A stretch of 64,000 nt of DNA, taken from positions 116,380 through 180,379 of the forward strand of contig BCIH01000010.1 of NCBI GenBank assembly GCA_002897115.2. The letters are read 5' to 3'. This document shows positions 110-56,633 of the stretch, piece by piece; position 1 is the stretch's first letter; each line of letters opens with the position of its first letter. The notes under the pieces were generated by a model, which did no database searches, was not told where the DNA came from, and was given only the letters and a program-made list of their open reading frames with translations. Source of the stretch: Prototheca cutis. Taxonomy: Eukaryota; Chlorophyta; Trebouxiophyceae; Chlorellales; Chlorellaceae. The position numbers were made by a program, and so were the translations under genes.

Positions 110-123
110 AAAAAAGGCAAAAA
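110..123 (-). terminator. Pol III-type T-run terminators after the tRNA 5' half
   Basis: On the minus strand, four bases (TCTC) after the end of the tRNA 5' half, there is a run of five T (123-119), then GCC, then six T (115-110). Runs of this kind end RNA polymerase III transcripts. Their place after the 5' half, not after the 3' half, fits transcription of the permuted gene as one unit. Confidence 0.7.
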
Positions 124-127
124 GAGA

Positions 128-242
128 GTGTGAGGCGAACGCGCTGAACCGACTGCGCCATGGTTGCGTATAATGCTGCACCACTGTGGTGCCCAGCAGC
201 ACTGCACTGCAACCACCCAGGCTCGAACTGGGGACCTTTCGC
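128..242 (-). tRNA. Circularly permuted tRNA-Val (anticodon CAC) gene
   Basis: Read on the minus strand, the 3' half comes first (242 to 208): anticodon-stem strand GCGAA, variable AGGTC, T arm CCCAG/TTCGAGC/CTGGG, acceptor strand TGGTTGC and discriminator A. A 40-nt insert follows (207 to 168), then the 5' half (167 to 128): acceptor GCAACCA, TG, D arm GCGC/AGTCGGTTCA/GCGC, G, anticodon-stem strand TTCGC and loop CTCACAC. The acceptor stem pairs 7/7, anticodon stem 5/5, T stem 5/5 and D stem 4/4 only when the halves are swapped. The anticodon region through the variable loop matches what I know of eukaryotic tRNA-Val(CAC). The loop end could be shifted by one C, which occurs on both sides of the junction. 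CCA is not encoded. Permuted tRNA genes are known from the red alga Cyanidioschyzon, prasinophyte green algae and chlorarachniophyte nucleomorphs. The mature form is a circular-intermediate product there; here that is inferred. Confidence 0.88.
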
Positions 243-439
243 GGACACATCGGATGTTGAGGGTCATGGTTGATCTTCGCTATAAGTACCATCACCTTGA
301 CTTCGCGCGGCTCCTGGGGATGTTCTTCTGCCAACGAAGCCCCGTTCTGCCGTTGTTTCCTTCTTTCTATTCCCAAGGCGGCCCCTTCCCATCTGCACAG
401 CGAGCAGTCCACCGGCATTGGCACTGGTCACAAGTCCGT

Positions 440-25805: not shown

Positions 25806-28800
25806 TCAGCGACGAAGGTAGTTGACGTGGCTGAGGAGGAAGCCAGACCCCAGACGGAAGGCAAACACGAAAGCGAGTAGAATCAGCGCGCACCACCAGA
25901 TGAAATCGTACTTCCATCCAAAGTAGGAGTCCATAAACTCTGGCAGGCTGAGCTCCTGCGCGGAGAGGCCGTAGATTGGCACGTCCATGTCGCAGAGCTG
26001 GCTGCATGCCAGACCGTAGAGGGACCATGTGGTGGGGCTGATGCGGTTAATCCACTTCCAGCCGACGGCCATGGAGGGGTAGGGCAGCAGGAAGCCGTTG
26101 AAGATGGTCCAGATCTGGTTGAACGCCGCGGCCAGGAGCATGGCCAGCAGGGGCGACGGTGTGAGGTAGACCAGGAACTGGCCAAACAGCGTGTAGATGG
26201 TCAGGCTGAGGAAAAAGATGAGCAGGAAGTAGAAAAACTTCCACGCCACCGCCTCAAACTGGACCATCCAGTAGGAAATGGAGACCATCAGAATGGTCTG
26301 GAGCAGGAGGTAGGGCAGCTCGGCGATCGTGGTGGCCATGGTGTAGTGCCCGGGGGAGTACATCGAAGCGGCACGCTCGCGGTAAAAGACCACGCGCTCC
26401 GCGGCGACCAGCGGCATGATGCTCATGCAGTTGAACATGCCCTGGAACACGGTCATCGAGAAGATCAGACCAGTGACCGACTGGACCTGCTGCAGCGTCG
26501 CCGGCTCGTCGGGGGATATCTTGCCCTGGCCCCAGAACACCGCGCCGTAGATCAGCGCAATCAACGTCGTCAGGGTCAGACGGACCATGTTATACTCGGG
26601 CAGGTGCCAGTAAATCTTGCAGAATTTCCGAATCAGCCATTTACGCTGCGTGTTGGCCGATGTCGCAAAGCGCGACCGCAGCGCCAGCGGCGAATGCGCC
26701 GCCTTTCCGCTCTCGATCAGCGCGTCCCCGCGCTCGATGTTGTCGCGGAACAGCGCACTGTTTCGGAACAGTTTCGGAAAGTCTTGCCCCGCGTCCCTGA
26801 ACGTGGTGCTCATCGATCCGCCTGTCACCTCCAGCATCCAGGTCGCCGGGTTGTACCCCGGGCGCAGGCGCTCGACGCCCGGCTGGGACTCCAGGTACGC
26901 CACCAGGTCTGCGCTCTCAAAGCCCAGTGGGCCTGCGTAGGTGAGCTCACCGCCACGCTGCAGCAGCACCATGGCGTCAAACGCCTCGAAGATCTCCACG
27001 CTGGGCTGGTGAATGGTCACCATCACGGTGCGCTGCGTGTCGGCGACGTTGCGGATGGCCCGCATGACCACGGCCGCCGACCGCGCGTCCAGGCCCGACG
27101 TCGGCTCGTCCATGAACACCACCGAGGGGTTTGCGACCAGCTCCACGCCGATGCTCAGGCGCTTGCGCTGCTCGATGGACAGGCCAGAGTCCGCGTAGCC
27201 CACCACGCGACCCCGGATGCGGTCCAGCTCAATCATCTTGAGCGTCTCCTCCACCAGCGAGCGGATGTCGTCCATGCTCACACTCTCCTCCAGTCGCAGT
27301 CGCGCGGAGAACAGCAGCGACTCCTCCACCGTCACCGCCACCGTGTGAATGTCCGTCTGCTCCACATACCTGTTTTGTCGGTGCCCGGGATTACGAGGAA
27401 ATGGCTGTTTGTTCACTGTTGGTGGTTGAAAAGTGGCCATCCAAAACAAAGAAAATACGAGCAAAGAAAATACGAGCAACTAACACCCCCCCCCCCCCCC
27501 CCCCCCCCCCCCCAAAAAAAAAGGAAGAAAGGAAGGAAACCCTCCCCCCCAAAAACCAAAATGGAAATGTACCCGACGACACGGGACCAGGTGTCTTGGT
27601 TCTTAGGATGACCGTTGACCATGATGTCCCCACGAACGATGCCGATGGTCTTGCGGCCGCACACCACGTCCATGAGGGTCGTCTTGCCCGCACCCGATCC
27701 GCCCATCAAAGCCATGAGCACCCCCGGCTCGGCAATCATGGAGATGTCCCGGAGCAGTTGGAGCTTGCCTTCGATGGTGGAGTCGCCAGATTCCTTGACC
27801 ACCCCGCGCCCCGGACCCTTGCCACGGGCGGGGTCCGGCACGTAGTAGCAGATGTTGCGGCACACGAGGGTGATGGGCGTGAAAGGGATGACCACGTGCT
27901 TTGGCGCGGCGTCCTGCAGTTCCTCCGTTGGCATGCTCACCAGCTCTTCCTGCCGTGCCTTGCCCAGGGAACGGCTCATGGACAGCGCCGACACCACCCG
28001 GGAAGAAAGGCTGCCCATGCGCGCGACGGTGGCAAAGACGCCGTCCTTGACCAGAGCGTCTTTGTCTTCGTCGGCCTCGACCGTGGCCCGGGGCTTCGGT
28101 GGGTCCAGGTAGGTCAGGGCGACGGAACCCAGCACTGTCAGCAGCGCGATGGTGCCCCAGTTGAAGATGACGGCCGCCCAGATGTAAAACCGGTCGGAAT
28201 GAAACCCAAATGCGTCCATGGCAAAGACTCCCAGGGGCACACCGGGTGCGGGGGAGGGGATGTCCCACTGGGGGGAGGTCATTTCGTTGATGACCAGGGC
28301 ACGCACCGTCCACGCCACGGGGTTTGCCCAGTACAGCCAGACGATGTAGTCGGGGATCTTGGGGTACAGGATCGTAAACCCGTTGGTCACCATCATGAGC
28401 AGGAGCATCAGGCCCATGAACGGCGTGGAGAACTGGAGCGTGGGGATGGCAAACGCGATCGTCCGGAACAGCGCCGCCAGACAGTTGGAGCCAGACCATG
28501 CGACGAGCAAAAAGATGAAAAATTGCTCGGCGGCACGTTGGAAGCCCGACATGAAATAGACGGGGATGCCAAAGAACAGCGTTTCCAGGGTACTCGGTAC
28601 CACTTGGGTCAGCAGCAACCCACAGGCGTACGACCAGGCCGGGAAGAAATGCTCGTCGCGGTGCTTGTGAAACACACGCTTGGTCTCAAAGATCAGGGTC
28701 ATAGTGGGCGTGGACATCATGATCAGAAACACCGTGACCAGCATGCACAGCGCGATGGCATTACGCCACGTGTCGGCCCCAGGCTGAATCCCGAAAAACA

Positions 28801-31800
28801 GGCCACCAATGATCAGGGCCATGATCACCGACTGCACGCAGCGTGCGATGATGAACCCGCGTGCGCGAACGAGATTCAGCAGCGCCTGGCGCCGGAACAC
28901 CATCCGTGTCAGGTACAGCCAGCCGTTGGCGTACCGACCCTTGGGAAGGCCGTGCCCTGGAGGGTCGTTGTTTGATGCCCCGCCGCTGTCGCGGCCGGAA
29001 ACTGTTCCGTACCCGGCGGCCACGCGCTTCATCATGGCGCGACCCCACTCAGTGTCCTCCCAAAACGCCCGCGACATGTCCTCCACCGGGGTCAGCAGTG
29101 TCGTCGGCGGTTGGCTGATCAGGCGCCGGGGGTCACGCAGCTGCTCGGGGATGTTCCTCTCCTCCAACAGCGCCCTGCTGGCGTACGTCAGCTGGCCCAC
29201 AGGTGTGGTGACTTCCTGCAGGAAACTGCCCGGGTCCTTGCGCGGTGGGCACACAAAACCAAGCCCTTCAAAAAAGTCCAGGACCGATTCCGTGGGGCCG
29301 TGGTAGATGATGCGCCCGTCGGTCAGGATGACAATGTCGTCAAACAGCCGCACCACCTCGGGTGGCGGTTGGAGCAGGCTCACCAGCAGCGTGCGCTTCA
29401 GGGTATGGCACGCCGCGCGCAGCGACTTGACGATCGAAAACGTGGTCGCCGAGTCGAGGCCCGTGGAAATCTCGTCCATCATCATCACCATCTGGGGCCC
29501 CGTCATGACTTCGGCCGTCGTGACACGCTTGCGCTCACCGCCGGAAATGCCGCGCTGCTCGCTGTTCCCAATCATCGTATCCGCCGCGTGACTTAGACCA
29601 AGAATCTTCATAATGATGAAGGGTTTGACCCCGTCCCGCAGCACCTCCAGCATCTGCGCCAGGAAACCGGCCGTCACAGGCTTGAGCTCGCTCTCGGCCT
29701 CCACGCTCGAGTGCCGCAGCAGCACCGCGCGGCTGTCCATTCCCCGGAGTGGGGGCTTGGCGGTGGAGTTGGGCGGCAGTGGGGACGGTAAGTCCCCCGC
29801 AGCAGCAACACTGCCGGCGTCGCCGTCGACTGCATCCTGGTAGACGCTGGCCGCAGAGGAGGAAACGGAGCTCGCTCGCCGCGAAGCGGCATCGTAGAAT
29901 TCGTCACGTGCACTCTCCGCATCGTCGTCAACACCGCTGTCGGTTGCACCGGGCAGTCGCGGCGGCGTGTGCGGACCGTTGGAACCACCGCCGTCGACCG
30001 CGCCACCATTCAAGGTGCCGCCGTTCGCACCGACACCAACCCCATCGTCCAGGGGCTGACTACGGACGGCCTTGGCCAGCCCCTCTTCCAGGCCCACGGC
30101 AGCTGCTGTCTCCGAGTGGCACCGCTCCAGGTCAGCCCGAACCTTGTCCAGCTCGGCTTCAAGCTTTGCCACGGCCTGGCCACGGACTTTGACGCTGGTC
30201 AGGCAGTCGTAAGCAAACTGGATCGTCTCCAACACCGTCATGTTTGGAATGTGAAAGTCGTCTGTCGTTTCTCGGGGGGAGGGGGAGAGGGGGGGTATGA
30301 GGACAAGCATGCGCTGGCACAGTCGTGAACATATCGATCTCAGCAACCCACCACCCGAGCACCAACACACAGCCCCCCTTGTAAAAAAAATCTATTGAAC
30401 ACTTCCCCCCAACGCACGTTGGTCAACCATGCCCGAGGCGCGCTGAACCACGAAATCGTCAAAACCCTTGCCGTTGTACTCGACGTCCCCCGTGATCTGG
30501 AGCAGAGGTGGTGATGCCCAGGTTGTGAGAGGGAGAGGGGGAGGTTGATGCAGCAAACTGAGCGCGAGATACCACAGCAGCCCTCATCGCCAACGCGGGC
30601 ACTCCCGATCACCCCTCCGCAAGCAACGCCACAGCCGCAACACACCCGGAGGTGGCGGTGGGCCCGCAGACGGCCGGAGAGGGCCTGCATGAAGACCGAT
30701 TTGCCAGAACCAGGTGGCCCAATCAGCAGTGTCAGCCGCCCCTGCAGAAAGTGGATGGGCCATGTGTATGCTTGGGAATCAAGCAAAAAGTCATTGATCG
30801 ATTGTGTAGCCAGGACTACGGGCCCGGCTGGCCCGTGGTTCCTGGGGCCAGAGACAACTCTGCACCGGATGCCATCATCACCACCACCAATTGTACCGGA
30901 AGCAGGGCGCCGTTGACGCCATCTAGGATCTTGAGCGGGCGTCTGTAGGCATTGGCCCGCAACAGGAGCAGGTTAACGGTGTTGATCACGCTGTTCCAGA
31001 GCGTCGGGTTGTCGCTCAGCCCGATAGCCGCGTCGGCTTCGACCGTGAGGCTGCGGTAGTGCACCTCAACCTGCCGAGACTCATCGTCCACCATGCTGCA
31101 GCGGTCGGTTTTGGGGGGGTTGTGGTAATTGTGTGTCTGTGCGTGTGTTTGGGGGGAGGGGTCACATGGGAAAGTCCACGTGATTGGCAGTGCCACACCA
31201 TACCGGTCAAGCCAGTAGTCTCCCTACTGACACCGGCTTATCTTGACCGCTCCAATTCCAACTCCCACAGCGTGCATATTTGCATGACTGTTGCAATGAA
31301 TGGCATTGTCATATTCGTACGCCCTACAATCCACAGCCCGGCTCACTGGATGATCGGCGCCAGGCGCTGGTGGAAGGTGAAGCCGTCCCCCTTGGTAGAC
31401 ACAAGGTCGTCCGCCAGAGCATCCTTCTCCGACCTGCATGTGGCCCAGCGGCGTGCACACACGATCATGGGTGTGCAGAAAATTCGAAAAATCCGCTCTG
31501 CCGTTCGACTGCACAGGCTGTGCTGTGCACCCTATCAGTGCGTAAGCCGGAGCAGCCGCTGTCGCTCACCGATCCAGGTGCTTGGAACCCGCCCGCCTTT
31601 CGAGCATGGCTTTGACAGCCGCAATGAGCTCCTTCTCATCCTTTTGTGCGTGTCCATTGAGCTCCTCTCCTTCCGGCCGGAACAGGTCCTGCATCATGAC
31701 CTCGGCCTCGGACACAAAGCTGCTCCGGGGCCGTGCAGGGCCATCGGGCCGCAGCTCGCCCTCTTTGCTGCTCATTGCCGCTCGACCTTCAATGTCCCAT

Positions 31801-54239: not shown

Positions 54240-55986
54240 ATGGGGAGCAAGAAGGAGAAGCACAAGGGCAAGGACAACAAGCATAAGAGCCACGATAAGC
54301 ACAGGAAGCACAGGAAGCACAAATCCAGCCGGAGGGACCGGGGCAGCAGCTCTGGCAGCGACAGTGACAGCCCACGCGATGCCAACGCGGAGCTTGAGCG
54401 CAGCCGCAGGGCTGCTCGGGCCATGCGGGAGATCCTGGGGCATGATTACGCTCTCAAGGCCGACCTGAGGGAGGTCATCACCAAGCTCGACCGCGGCGAG
54501 GCACTGTCCGTGGAAGGTGTGCAGGACCACTATGTCAGGTCCAGGCTGCACACCATGCTGACCAGCCTGCCTCAAGTCAAGGCGACACCCACGGTGCGTG
54601 TGTTAGGGGCCGTGGGTCCGCGTGAGGGACTGGGTGGATGTGCACGGGGTGAAACGGAGCTGCCACCTAGGCATGGCTGCTACTGGCAGCCCCCACTCAC
54701 CCACCTACTAAGACGACTGGCTGACCCGCTCGGCACCACTCTCGTCCCCCACCATCACGACAATAGAAGGAATATTTCAAGCGGTCGGGCAGGAACGGGT
54801 CGGGCTCCATTCTGGCTTTCCTGGCACCCATCCTGAACGAATCCAGGGAGCAACTGGCTGCCTATGCCCCAGTGCCACGGGATTTGAGCCGTGGCAGCGG
54901 CAAAACAGCTGGGGATGATGTGGCTGCATCGAGGGCCGGGGTCAGGGCCTGTAATCCTCCGGAGCAGCGGCGGCCAGGGCCCGCCACGGCCGCAGCCCCA
55001 CGCGACGAGCCCTCCGCCGACAAGCCCGTGCTTATTGGTGCAGCCATGCCACCGCCGGGCTTTGGGGGAGGGCTTGGTGTGAATGACGGCAGCGCACGGT
55101 CAGGATTGCCAGAAGGGGAACCTGCATCGAGTGATGATGGCCCTGGTAATGTGGACGGCAGTGGAGCTCGAGGAGCTTCGCAAAACTTCCCTGACGATGA
55201 CGACTGGGAGCACCGCGGTCAGCAGGTAAAGTCAAAGGCCCCCGATGACAATGATGATGCACAGGCTGTACCGCCCGGCCCAGACCCGGCGCCGCAGACT
55301 TTGAAAAAGGTGCTGGGGCCCGCCATGCCGCCGCCCGAGGTGCTGGCGGCTGCTGCCACCGCTGGTGGTCCTGGGACTGCATTTGGCGATGATTTTCACG
55401 ACGACGACGGCGGCGATTTCCTGGGCCCCATGCCTCCTGAGATCGAGGCCGAGGTCGAGGCGGCCGGCGACGACGAGCGGGCCGCGGAGGTGAACCGGAT
55501 TCTCCGTGTCCTGACAGAGCACAGGGCATCGCTGACAAGCGTTGACGCGGCCGAGGCGCTGAAGCGGCCGCCTGACGCGTACGCGGTGCTGGGTCTTGAC
55601 CCCGCGACTCCTTCGTCCGGGATCAAGCGGCGCTACATGCGGGTGAGCCTGCTCATCCACCCAGACAAGTGCGCCCACACGGGTGCGGCCGACGCGTTCC
55701 AAGCGGTCGCAGCCGCCGCGGCCACGCTGCAGGATCAGGAAAAACGCACGGAGCTGGACGCCGCGCGCGAGGACGCTGCACTGCGCGAAGAATTTTTAAA
55801 AGAAAGCGCGGCGCGTGACCGCGCACGGAAGTGGCGTGTGGCGCGGGGTCAAGCCACAGCCGAGGACCTGGCGTCGCCGACGGCGGCGGCTGACGGCGGG
55901 TTTGCGGAGCCACGCCGCGAAGCCTGGATGACGGAGCTGCCACCAGAGCGGTCGGCAGGCGCAGGCATCCCGGTATGCTCGGTGTT

Positions 55987-56019
<33 letters not shown>

Positions 56020-56633
56020 ATTACCATGATATTCGGGGTTTGGGGTGTGATGCATTCAAGTCTGACCCGAAATGTGTGGACAACGATATCACTTCCGTTC
56101 TTGACACCCCCAAAACCCTAACCCCTAAAAAACGCATCACGCAGGCTTCGGGCGGTCCGTTCCGTGGTTTCTCTCAGTCTGGGGTCAAACCCCGGGGCGA
56201 CACGTCGGGGTGGACGATGACGCCCTCACAGCGGGCGGCGCAGCTCGAGGGCGGCGGCGGGACCGGGGCAGGCCCGAGCATGCTGGCCGATGCACCCACC
56301 TCCGCGCCCGTCCGGGCCTCTGCAGAGGCTGCGGCTATGGACGCCTTCAATACCACNACCCGCAAGCGCAGCCTGCTGGAGGAGCACCAGGCGCGCAAGG
56401 CCGAAGAAAGCAGGCGCAAGCGCAAAGGCAGTACAGCGGGCCCTGCGGCGGCAGCGGAAGGCTGGGATCCAGCGACGCAACCATGGCGGCCCTTTGATCG
56501 AGAAAAGGACCTGGTGGGGGCCCGGGGGGACGTCAAGTCGGCCCAAGGCCGACTCGCGGCCATGCCTTCCCTCGCCTCCCGGTTTGGCAGCCTGAACGGC
56601 AATGGCGGCGGCAGCCAGCGGACGTTCCTGTGA
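54240..56633 (+). CDS. J-domain protein with GPALPP motifs and DUF3752
   Basis: Starts MGSKKEKHKGKDNKHKSHDK, a Lys/His/Ser-rich nuclear-type N-terminus, then a helical part (REILGHDYALKADLREVITK). After an intron (about 54593-54835) come GP-MPP-type motifs (GAAMPPPGFG; LGPAMPPPEVL; LGPMPPEIEAEVEAA) and a J domain: PPDAYAVLGLDPATPSSGIK, the HPD motif in LLIHPDKCAHTGAADAFQAV. A C-terminal DUF3752 block follows: EAWMTELPPERSAGAGIP, spliced over a T/G-rich intron (55974-56142, approximate) to QASGGPFRGFSQSG and SGWTMTPSQRAAQLEG, then WRPFDREKDLVGARGDVK, ending at 56633. The combination matches plant J-domain/DUF3752 proteins. A splicing or RNA role is inferred. Confidence 0.85.
55989..56018 (+). 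repeat. Intronic T10-G20 homopolymer pair
   Basis: Ten T followed by twenty G on the sense strand in an intron of the J-domain gene, the same arrangement as at 4813 and 27486. Confidence 0.9.

Follow-up and report, generated by a model that had tools for sequence, protein, structure and literature searches.

A circularly permuted tRNA-Val(CAC) gene in Prototheca cutis and the permuted tRNA gene set of its genome

Circularly permuted transfer RNA (tRNA) genes, and their presence in the lineage studied here, are already known. In Auxenochlorella UTEX 250-A, which belongs to the same Auxenochlorella-Helicosporidium-Prototheca lineage, permuted tRNA genes carry their halves in swapped order (PMC12636532), and the initial tRNAscan-SE set was described as incomplete, the permuted genes being found thereafter (PMC12636532 / PMC12633428). 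Here we analysed a stretch of 64,000 nucleotides (nt) from the colourless green alga Prototheca cutis (GenBank assembly GCA_002897115.2, contig BCIH01000010.1; C10:116380-180379 in the coordinates used below), referred to as the window. On its minus strand it carries a tRNA-Val(CAC) gene in permuted order, which is one of at least 43 permuted tRNA genes found in this genome.

The Val locus resembles the type II permuted genes of Ostreococcus and Micromonas, which have a 37/38 junction, a bulge-helix motif and a short intervening sequence (PMC3978253). However, in the review from which this account comes, those genomes have only 3 to 6 permuted genes each, mostly for Ser, Leu, Cys and initiator Met, with none for Val and one of type V (PMC3978253), whereas 43 genes with 29 anticodons and intervening sequences of 9-80 nt were found in P. 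cutis. Cyanidioschyzon merolae follows the same principle, with a TATA-like upstream element and a T stretch, and its circular RNA intermediate has been demonstrated (PMC3978253). In that alga 11 of 43 genes are permuted, with four junction types and ectopic introns (PMC3978253), whereas the P. cutis survey sought the 37/38 type only. The archaeon Thermofilum pendens shares circular permutation with a splicing-endonuclease motif but, unlike P. cutis, has its junction at 59/60, intervening sequences of 1 or 7 nt and an encoded CCA (PMC3978253).

The initial annotation of the window had called permuted tRNAs rare and placed them in a red alga, prasinophytes and nucleomorphs. This distribution was too narrow, as the archaeon (PMC3978253) and Auxenochlorella (PMC12636532) have to be added, and rarity does not hold within P. 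cutis, where the permuted form is the majority among the genes found (43 permuted vs 18 linear). One genome with 43 candidates can be set against the 34 permuted genes in seven organisms given in the 2014 review (PMC3978253). Full-text literature searches on Prototheca, Chlorella and permuted tRNA did not find this extent of permutation in print among the papers listed; tRNA passages in the genome paper on P. cutis concern the plastid (PMC5772498), and for P. wickerhamii 64 tRNA genes have been reported in a genome paper that names tRNAscan (PMC7941945). Standard tRNA annotation in this lineage can overlook many tRNA genes.

The permuted tRNA-Val(CAC) locus

The features of the locus, in the direction of the minus strand, are given in window coordinates.

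281..285 (-): putative TATA-like element TTATA, 21 nt from the CAA below; its function is suggested by its sequence
257..259 (-): putative RNA polymerase III start motif CAA, drawn as the start of the leader
244..259 (-): 5' leader CAACATCCGATGTGTC, which could pair with the anticodon loop; its last 8 nt are the same in the second Val copy
208..243 (-): tRNA-Val(CAC) 3' half, tRNA positions 38-73 (T arm, acceptor 3' strand, discriminator A); CCA is not encoded
168..207 (-): 40-nt intervening sequence linking the acceptor ends, expected to be removed; it has no run of four T
129..167 (-): tRNA-Val(CAC) 5' half, tRNA positions 1-37 (acceptor 5' strand, D arm), anticodon CAC at 132-130
110..128 (-): 3' trailer with CTCTC, TTTTT (123-119) and TTTTTT (115-110), a putative RNA polymerase III terminator

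The 3' half consists of C38 (243), GCGAA (242-238), AGGTC (237-233), the T arm CCCAG/TTCGAGC/CTGGG (232-216), TGGTTGC (215-209) and the discriminator A (208). The 5' half consists of GCAACCA (167-161), TG, the D arm GCGC/AGTCGGTTCA/GCGC (158-141), G (140), TTCGC (139-135) and CTCACA (134-129). Both lie on the same strand and make up a complete tRNA with the 3' half upstream and the 5' half downstream, which is the type II order, and all stems are formed by Watson-Crick pairs (7/7 acceptor, 5/5 T, 4/4 D and 5/5 anticodon pairs; 21/21 in total).

The order of the halves given in the initial annotation was correct, although its ends (242-208 and 167-128) are 1 nt off from those adopted here (243-208 and 167-129). 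Junctions at 37/38 (129/243) and 38/39 (128/242) yield an identical mature tRNA and are indistinguishable by sequence because a C flanks both sides; the 37/38 junction, a known type II site in the anticodon loop, was adopted. In the bulge-helix geometry, position 32 is paired with position -3, past a 2-nt bulge. The leader and anticodon loop of the Val gene form 3/4 pairs in this 32/-3 register, which is weak evidence taken singly, and pairing does not discriminate between the two junctions, as 3/4 is reached in one of two registers under both. In the minimum-energy fold of the precursor, GUGU pairs with ACAC instead of this register, and the folding energy, in spite of the right shape, was not better than that of shuffles (z -0.48) and was not used as support. 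Downstream, the run of five T begins 5 nt past the 5' half.

As it stands, the 64-kb window contains no tRNA that is reported by ARAGORN or by an Rfam scan at the gathering threshold, as had been anticipated for tRNA finders that require the conventional order. When the halves were rejoined, ARAGORN reported tRNA-Val(cac) for 5 of 36 junction choices, including 129/243 and 128/242 with 75 nt each, and the remaining three choices alter the loop length. Eight linear tRNAs from the P. cutis assembly, none of them Val, were used to build a covariance model in permuted order, R1. Its sole match in the 64 kb at an expectation value (E) up to 10 was the Val locus, with 56.6 bits and a rough E of 8.8e-14, on a scale on which single linear tRNA halves score no more than 27.8 bits and a genuine tandem Pro-Asp pair (locus L012) scores 37.7 bits. 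The Val locus was also the only window match of a structure scanner, which gave 0 matches of at least 16.5 in 234,492 reversed bases of loci, these loci partly overlapping. Full pairing in the swapped order only, the ARAGORN result after rejoining only and the single R1 match, the last being the covariance-model check proposed with the initial annotation, bear out its identification of a circularly permuted tRNA-Val(CAC).

A second permuted Val(CAC) gene is located at C10:106087-106202, on the opposite strand and 10 kb from the window copy. The halves of the two copies are identical (3' halves 36/36, 5' halves 39/39; 75/75 together), whereas their intervening sequences agree in 24 of 47 aligned columns. 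The copies also match over the final 8 nt of the leader and the initial 30 nt of the trailer, and the trailer identity continues beyond the T runs up to a run of N, which indicates that recent duplication or conversion is part of their history. The CAACATC context and a clear TATA are absent from the second copy. Intact copies supplying tRNA-Val(CAC) had been named as part of the grounds for doubting the gene; a DNA search with the rejoined 75 nt, at E up to 10, returned just the two permuted loci and no linear Val(CAC). Among the Val codons of the three open reading frames (ORFs) counted, GTG was used most often (37/80, 25/41 and 57/113, with introns kept in).

Permuted and linear tRNA genes in the genome

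The survey was carried out on an assembly copy of 19.89 Mb in 23 contigs, by T-arm and A-box pattern searches followed by the structure scanner and R1. Per search, 39/39, 7/7, 14/14, 12/12, 17/25 and 33/65 pattern matches were read; from a further search with 163 matches, 33 among the 100 listed were fetched, besides loci already in the set. The survey was built for anticodon-loop (type II) junctions, so that other junction types would have been missed, and the patterns favour standard T arms; the counts are therefore lower bounds and the 70% share of permuted genes could shift. At least 43 permuted genes with 29 anticodons, on 14 contigs, were found vs at least 18 linear genes with 11 anticodons. 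Seventeen of the linear genes were identified by the Rfam tRNA model (63 of 246 candidates scored), to which a Leu(TAG) gene with an intron, below the cut-off, was added. The genes found were:

Permuted: Ala AGC x3, CGC x2, TGC; Cys GCA; Glu CTC x4
Permuted: Gly CCC, GCC x4, TCC; His GTG; Ile AAT x2, TAT; Leu AAG
Permuted: Met CAT (elongator-like by eye); Asn GTT x2; Pro TGG; Gln CTG x2, TTG
Permuted: Arg TCG, TCT; Ser CGA, GCT, TGA; Thr AGT x2, CGT, TGT
Permuted: Val CAC x2, TAC; Trp CCA; Tyr GTA
Linear, intron in the anticodon loop: Asp x3, Leu CAA, Leu TAG, Pro AGG x2, Pro CGG
Linear, no intron: Phe, Lys CTT x2, Leu CAG x3, Met CAT (initiator-like by eye), Arg ACG x2, Arg CCT

CAT is the only triplet common to both sets, which together hold 39 triplets, or 40 kinds when the two Met kinds are kept apart; these were separated by eye from the G-C pairs in the anticodon stem, A54 being present in both. 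Among the genes found, 13 amino acids are served by permuted genes only, four (Leu, Met, Pro and Arg) by both forms and three (Asp, Phe and Lys) by linear genes only. Among the expected kinds, this incomplete survey found neither form of Val AAC, Lys TTT, Glu TTC, Ser AGA, Leu TAA and Arg CCG. Nearly all permuted loci differ in their intervening sequence, and the anticodon stem of Trp(CCA) has 4/5 pairs (by eye, hand-corrected).

Run on 40 loci, R1 recovered all of their 42 permuted genes (42/42), with E up to 3e-7. In 41 distinct aligned genes, 97.8% of cells pair compared with 56.9% in shuffles, 336 cells are changed on both sides compared with 93.3, and the covariation score is 1.041 compared with 0.239 (0/500 shuffles in each case). 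The helices that join the separated halves show double changes at 5/5 and 7/7 pairs, and in the acceptor helix there is variation on both sides at 7/7 pairs with 99.7% of cells paired. In slid controls the paired cells drop to 39-45%.

The halves of permuted genes are also conserved between paralogues. In 21 pairs with the same anticodon, 743/743 positions of the 3' halves and 772/779 positions of the 5' halves agree, and three of the seven differences are one N met in three pairs. Agreement in the same pairs is 214/355 for intervening sequences, 433/679 for leaders and 433/712 for trailers, against 0.36, 0.48 and 0.52 in unrelated genes; similar intervening sequences are kept in one Ala(AGC) pair, the two Ala(CGC) genes and the Glu genes.

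Pairing between leader and anticodon loop in the 32/-3 register, which is the one expected from bulge-helix geometry, has a mean of 2.27/4 over the permuted genes, vs 1.59 when leaders are swapped between genes (0/2000), and of 2.43 vs 1.67 with one gene per anticodon (0/2000). When 15 registers were run, only 32/-3 and two registers sharing its base pairs stood out. The leaders of Tyr, Asn, Cys and Gly(GCC) suit a register displaced by one position; when the better register of the two was taken, a test chosen after looking, the mean is 2.91 vs 2.12 in swaps (0/2000), and 33/43 genes reach 2.5/4 vs 16.0 in swaps (0/2000).

In permuted genes the A and B boxes are in reverse order. TTTT occurs within 30 nt past the 5' half in 43/43 permuted genes, compared with 6.8% of random 30-mers, and inside the intervening sequence in 1/43. 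With a motif set chosen post hoc, AT-rich tetramers were found at -55..-26 in 32/41 permuted genes vs 13/41 at -100..-71 (two loci being too short), and in 9/18 linear genes vs 8/18 in control segments. This fits an upstream promoter in the permuted genes, without being a proof of one. CAA is a start motif of RNA polymerase III in plant tRNA genes. The permuted genes as a set showed no clear enrichment of this motif, which is suggestive in the window copy only.

The survey also brought up arrangements and fragments outside these counts. Permuted Gln(CTG) and Thr(AGT) genes lie about 150 nt apart on opposite strands (L053, C10:42500-42845), and L124 (C13:122144-122539) holds a tandem of two permuted Gly(GCC) genes separated by about 235 nt. 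At L049:1489-1524 (-), immediately upstream of a permuted Glu(CTC) gene, there is a lone 3' part of tRNA-Phe with 97% identity to the linear Phe gene across 36 nt (beginning at the anticodon, as judged by eye); no Phe 5' half was matched in that locus. The scanner and R1 both left unclassified a linear tRNA-like sequence (L121, C12:216160-216480 (+)), which has a GGTTCGAATCC T arm and an acceptor stem that is nearly complete, and weak half-matches in L002, L090, L095 and L130 were not classified.

Functional interpretation, alternatives and origin

Judged from sequence, we put at about 93% the probability that the window locus is a functional type II permuted nuclear tRNA-Val(CAC) gene, one of two copies, in a genome where most of the tRNA genes found have this architecture. 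Several points limit the support for it. The 43rd gene, a Gln gene in L008, scored 23 bits with R1, which is no better than linear halves, and its call rests on structure. Fitting of the alignment to the model favours the structure, and the count of pairs with a double change was no higher than in shuffles (19 vs 19.0). Paralogue pairs from families of three or four genes are non-independent, and 10/43 genes remain below 2.5/4 in the pairing of leader and anticodon loop.

The locus could be a pseudogene, or a set of tRNA fragments scrambled by rearrangement and left unexpressed. The two Val copies are indeed inverted and 10 kb apart, and the truncated Phe 3' half shows that tRNA debris occurs; however, 21/21 stem pairs are intact in both copies, their halves are 75/75 identical despite the diverged intervening sequence, the leader end and T run are preserved in both, and 41 other permuted genes but no linear Val(CAC) were found, which leaves this as a very improbable explanation. 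The gene could also be real, yet dispensable, if tRNA-Val(CAC) were supplied mainly by an overlooked linear copy. The incompleteness of the survey, with six expected kinds found in neither form, speaks for this, whereas the 75-nt search gave the two permuted loci alone and no anticodon was found in both forms except Met(CAT), whose two kinds differ; dependence on a hidden linear gene is therefore most unlikely.

Tandem linear genes could in principle mimic the permuted order, as the real Pro-Asp tandem in L012 does with its chimeric R1 match. In a linear-only scan, which recovered 18/18 linear genes, 42 of the 43 permuted genes, including the window gene, had no upstream 5' half within 250 nt or the reach of the locus (at least 250 nt in 21 loci, 150-249 in 13 and below 150 in 9). 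The remaining gene, a Gly(GCC) on C13, did have one, which is that of the neighbouring permuted Gly(GCC) copy. A T run follows every 5' half, and the acceptor helix between the halves covaries at 7/7 pairs, so that mimicry by tandem genes has almost no probability left. An assembly artefact caused by inverted or mis-scaffolded reads, a doubt already raised with the initial annotation, draws on the description of the assembly as short-read with gaps (PMC5772498) and on the run of N at which the second Val copy ends. It is disfavoured, to the point of being scarcely credible, because the intervening sequence of the second Val copy differs and 41 further permuted genes were found; the 43 loci are spread over 14 contigs, nearly all with different intervening sequences, and the same architecture has been published for another genus of the lineage (PMC12636532).

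If the window locus is a functional permuted gene, RNA polymerase III would start upstream and stop at the T run, producing an RNA with the order leader, 3' half, intervening sequence, 5' half and trailer. This precursor would fold as a cloverleaf in which the intervening loop closes the acceptor stem, and the leader and anticodon loop could form a bulge-helix(-bulge) that is cut at 37/38 by the tRNA-splicing endonuclease. A ligase, possibly of the encoded RtcB type, would then join the ends into a circular RNA, from which RNase P and tRNase Z could excise the intervening loop before CCA is added, this being the presumed order of processing. Domain matches in the genome are consistent with such a pathway: the tRNA-splicing endonuclease domain PF01974 has two matches, on C3 and C7, and RtcB (PF01139) has four exon matches within 2 kb on C3, the search having covered RtcB among the ligases. 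The mature tRNA-Val(CAC) would presumably be used in translation.

It is likely that nuclear tRNA genes of P. cutis are permuted by default, as are 43/61 of the genes found, 29/40 of the kinds found and all genes found for 13/20 amino acids, that most decoding capacity therefore depends on endonuclease cutting and RNA circularisation, and that linear and permuted forms interconvert on short time scales. If the genes are functional, most translation in P. cutis would rest on the cutting and circularising of precursors whose internal promoter boxes are misordered, and both the transcription and the origin of permuted genes become testable.

A near-identical pair of Pro genes bears on the question of origin. 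The permuted Pro(TGG) gene (L035, C2:935281-935361 (-)) and the linear Pro(CGG) gene (L016, C1:222817-222936 (-)), which carries a 48-nt intron, are identical at 71/72 mature positions. The simplest explanation would derive one gene recently from the other, or both from a recent common ancestor, with gene conversion of the halves as an alternative. No significant similarity was detected between the Pro(TGG) flanks and the Pro(CGG) intron (best E 1.2), and therefore an origin by tandem duplication and loss is neither shown nor excluded.

Apart from the tRNA gene, the window contains protein-coding ORFs. The proteins closest to a transporter ORF come from Auxenochlorella (64% identity, with 65% of the query covered) and P. 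wickerhamii (52% identity, 74% covered). At 25806-30370 (-), two overlapping ORFs, probably exons of one or two genes, carry ABC-2 membrane and ABC-transporter domains, both of a plant PDR (ABCG) type, and at 54872-56029 (+) there is an ORF with a DnaJ domain (E 7.7e-14).
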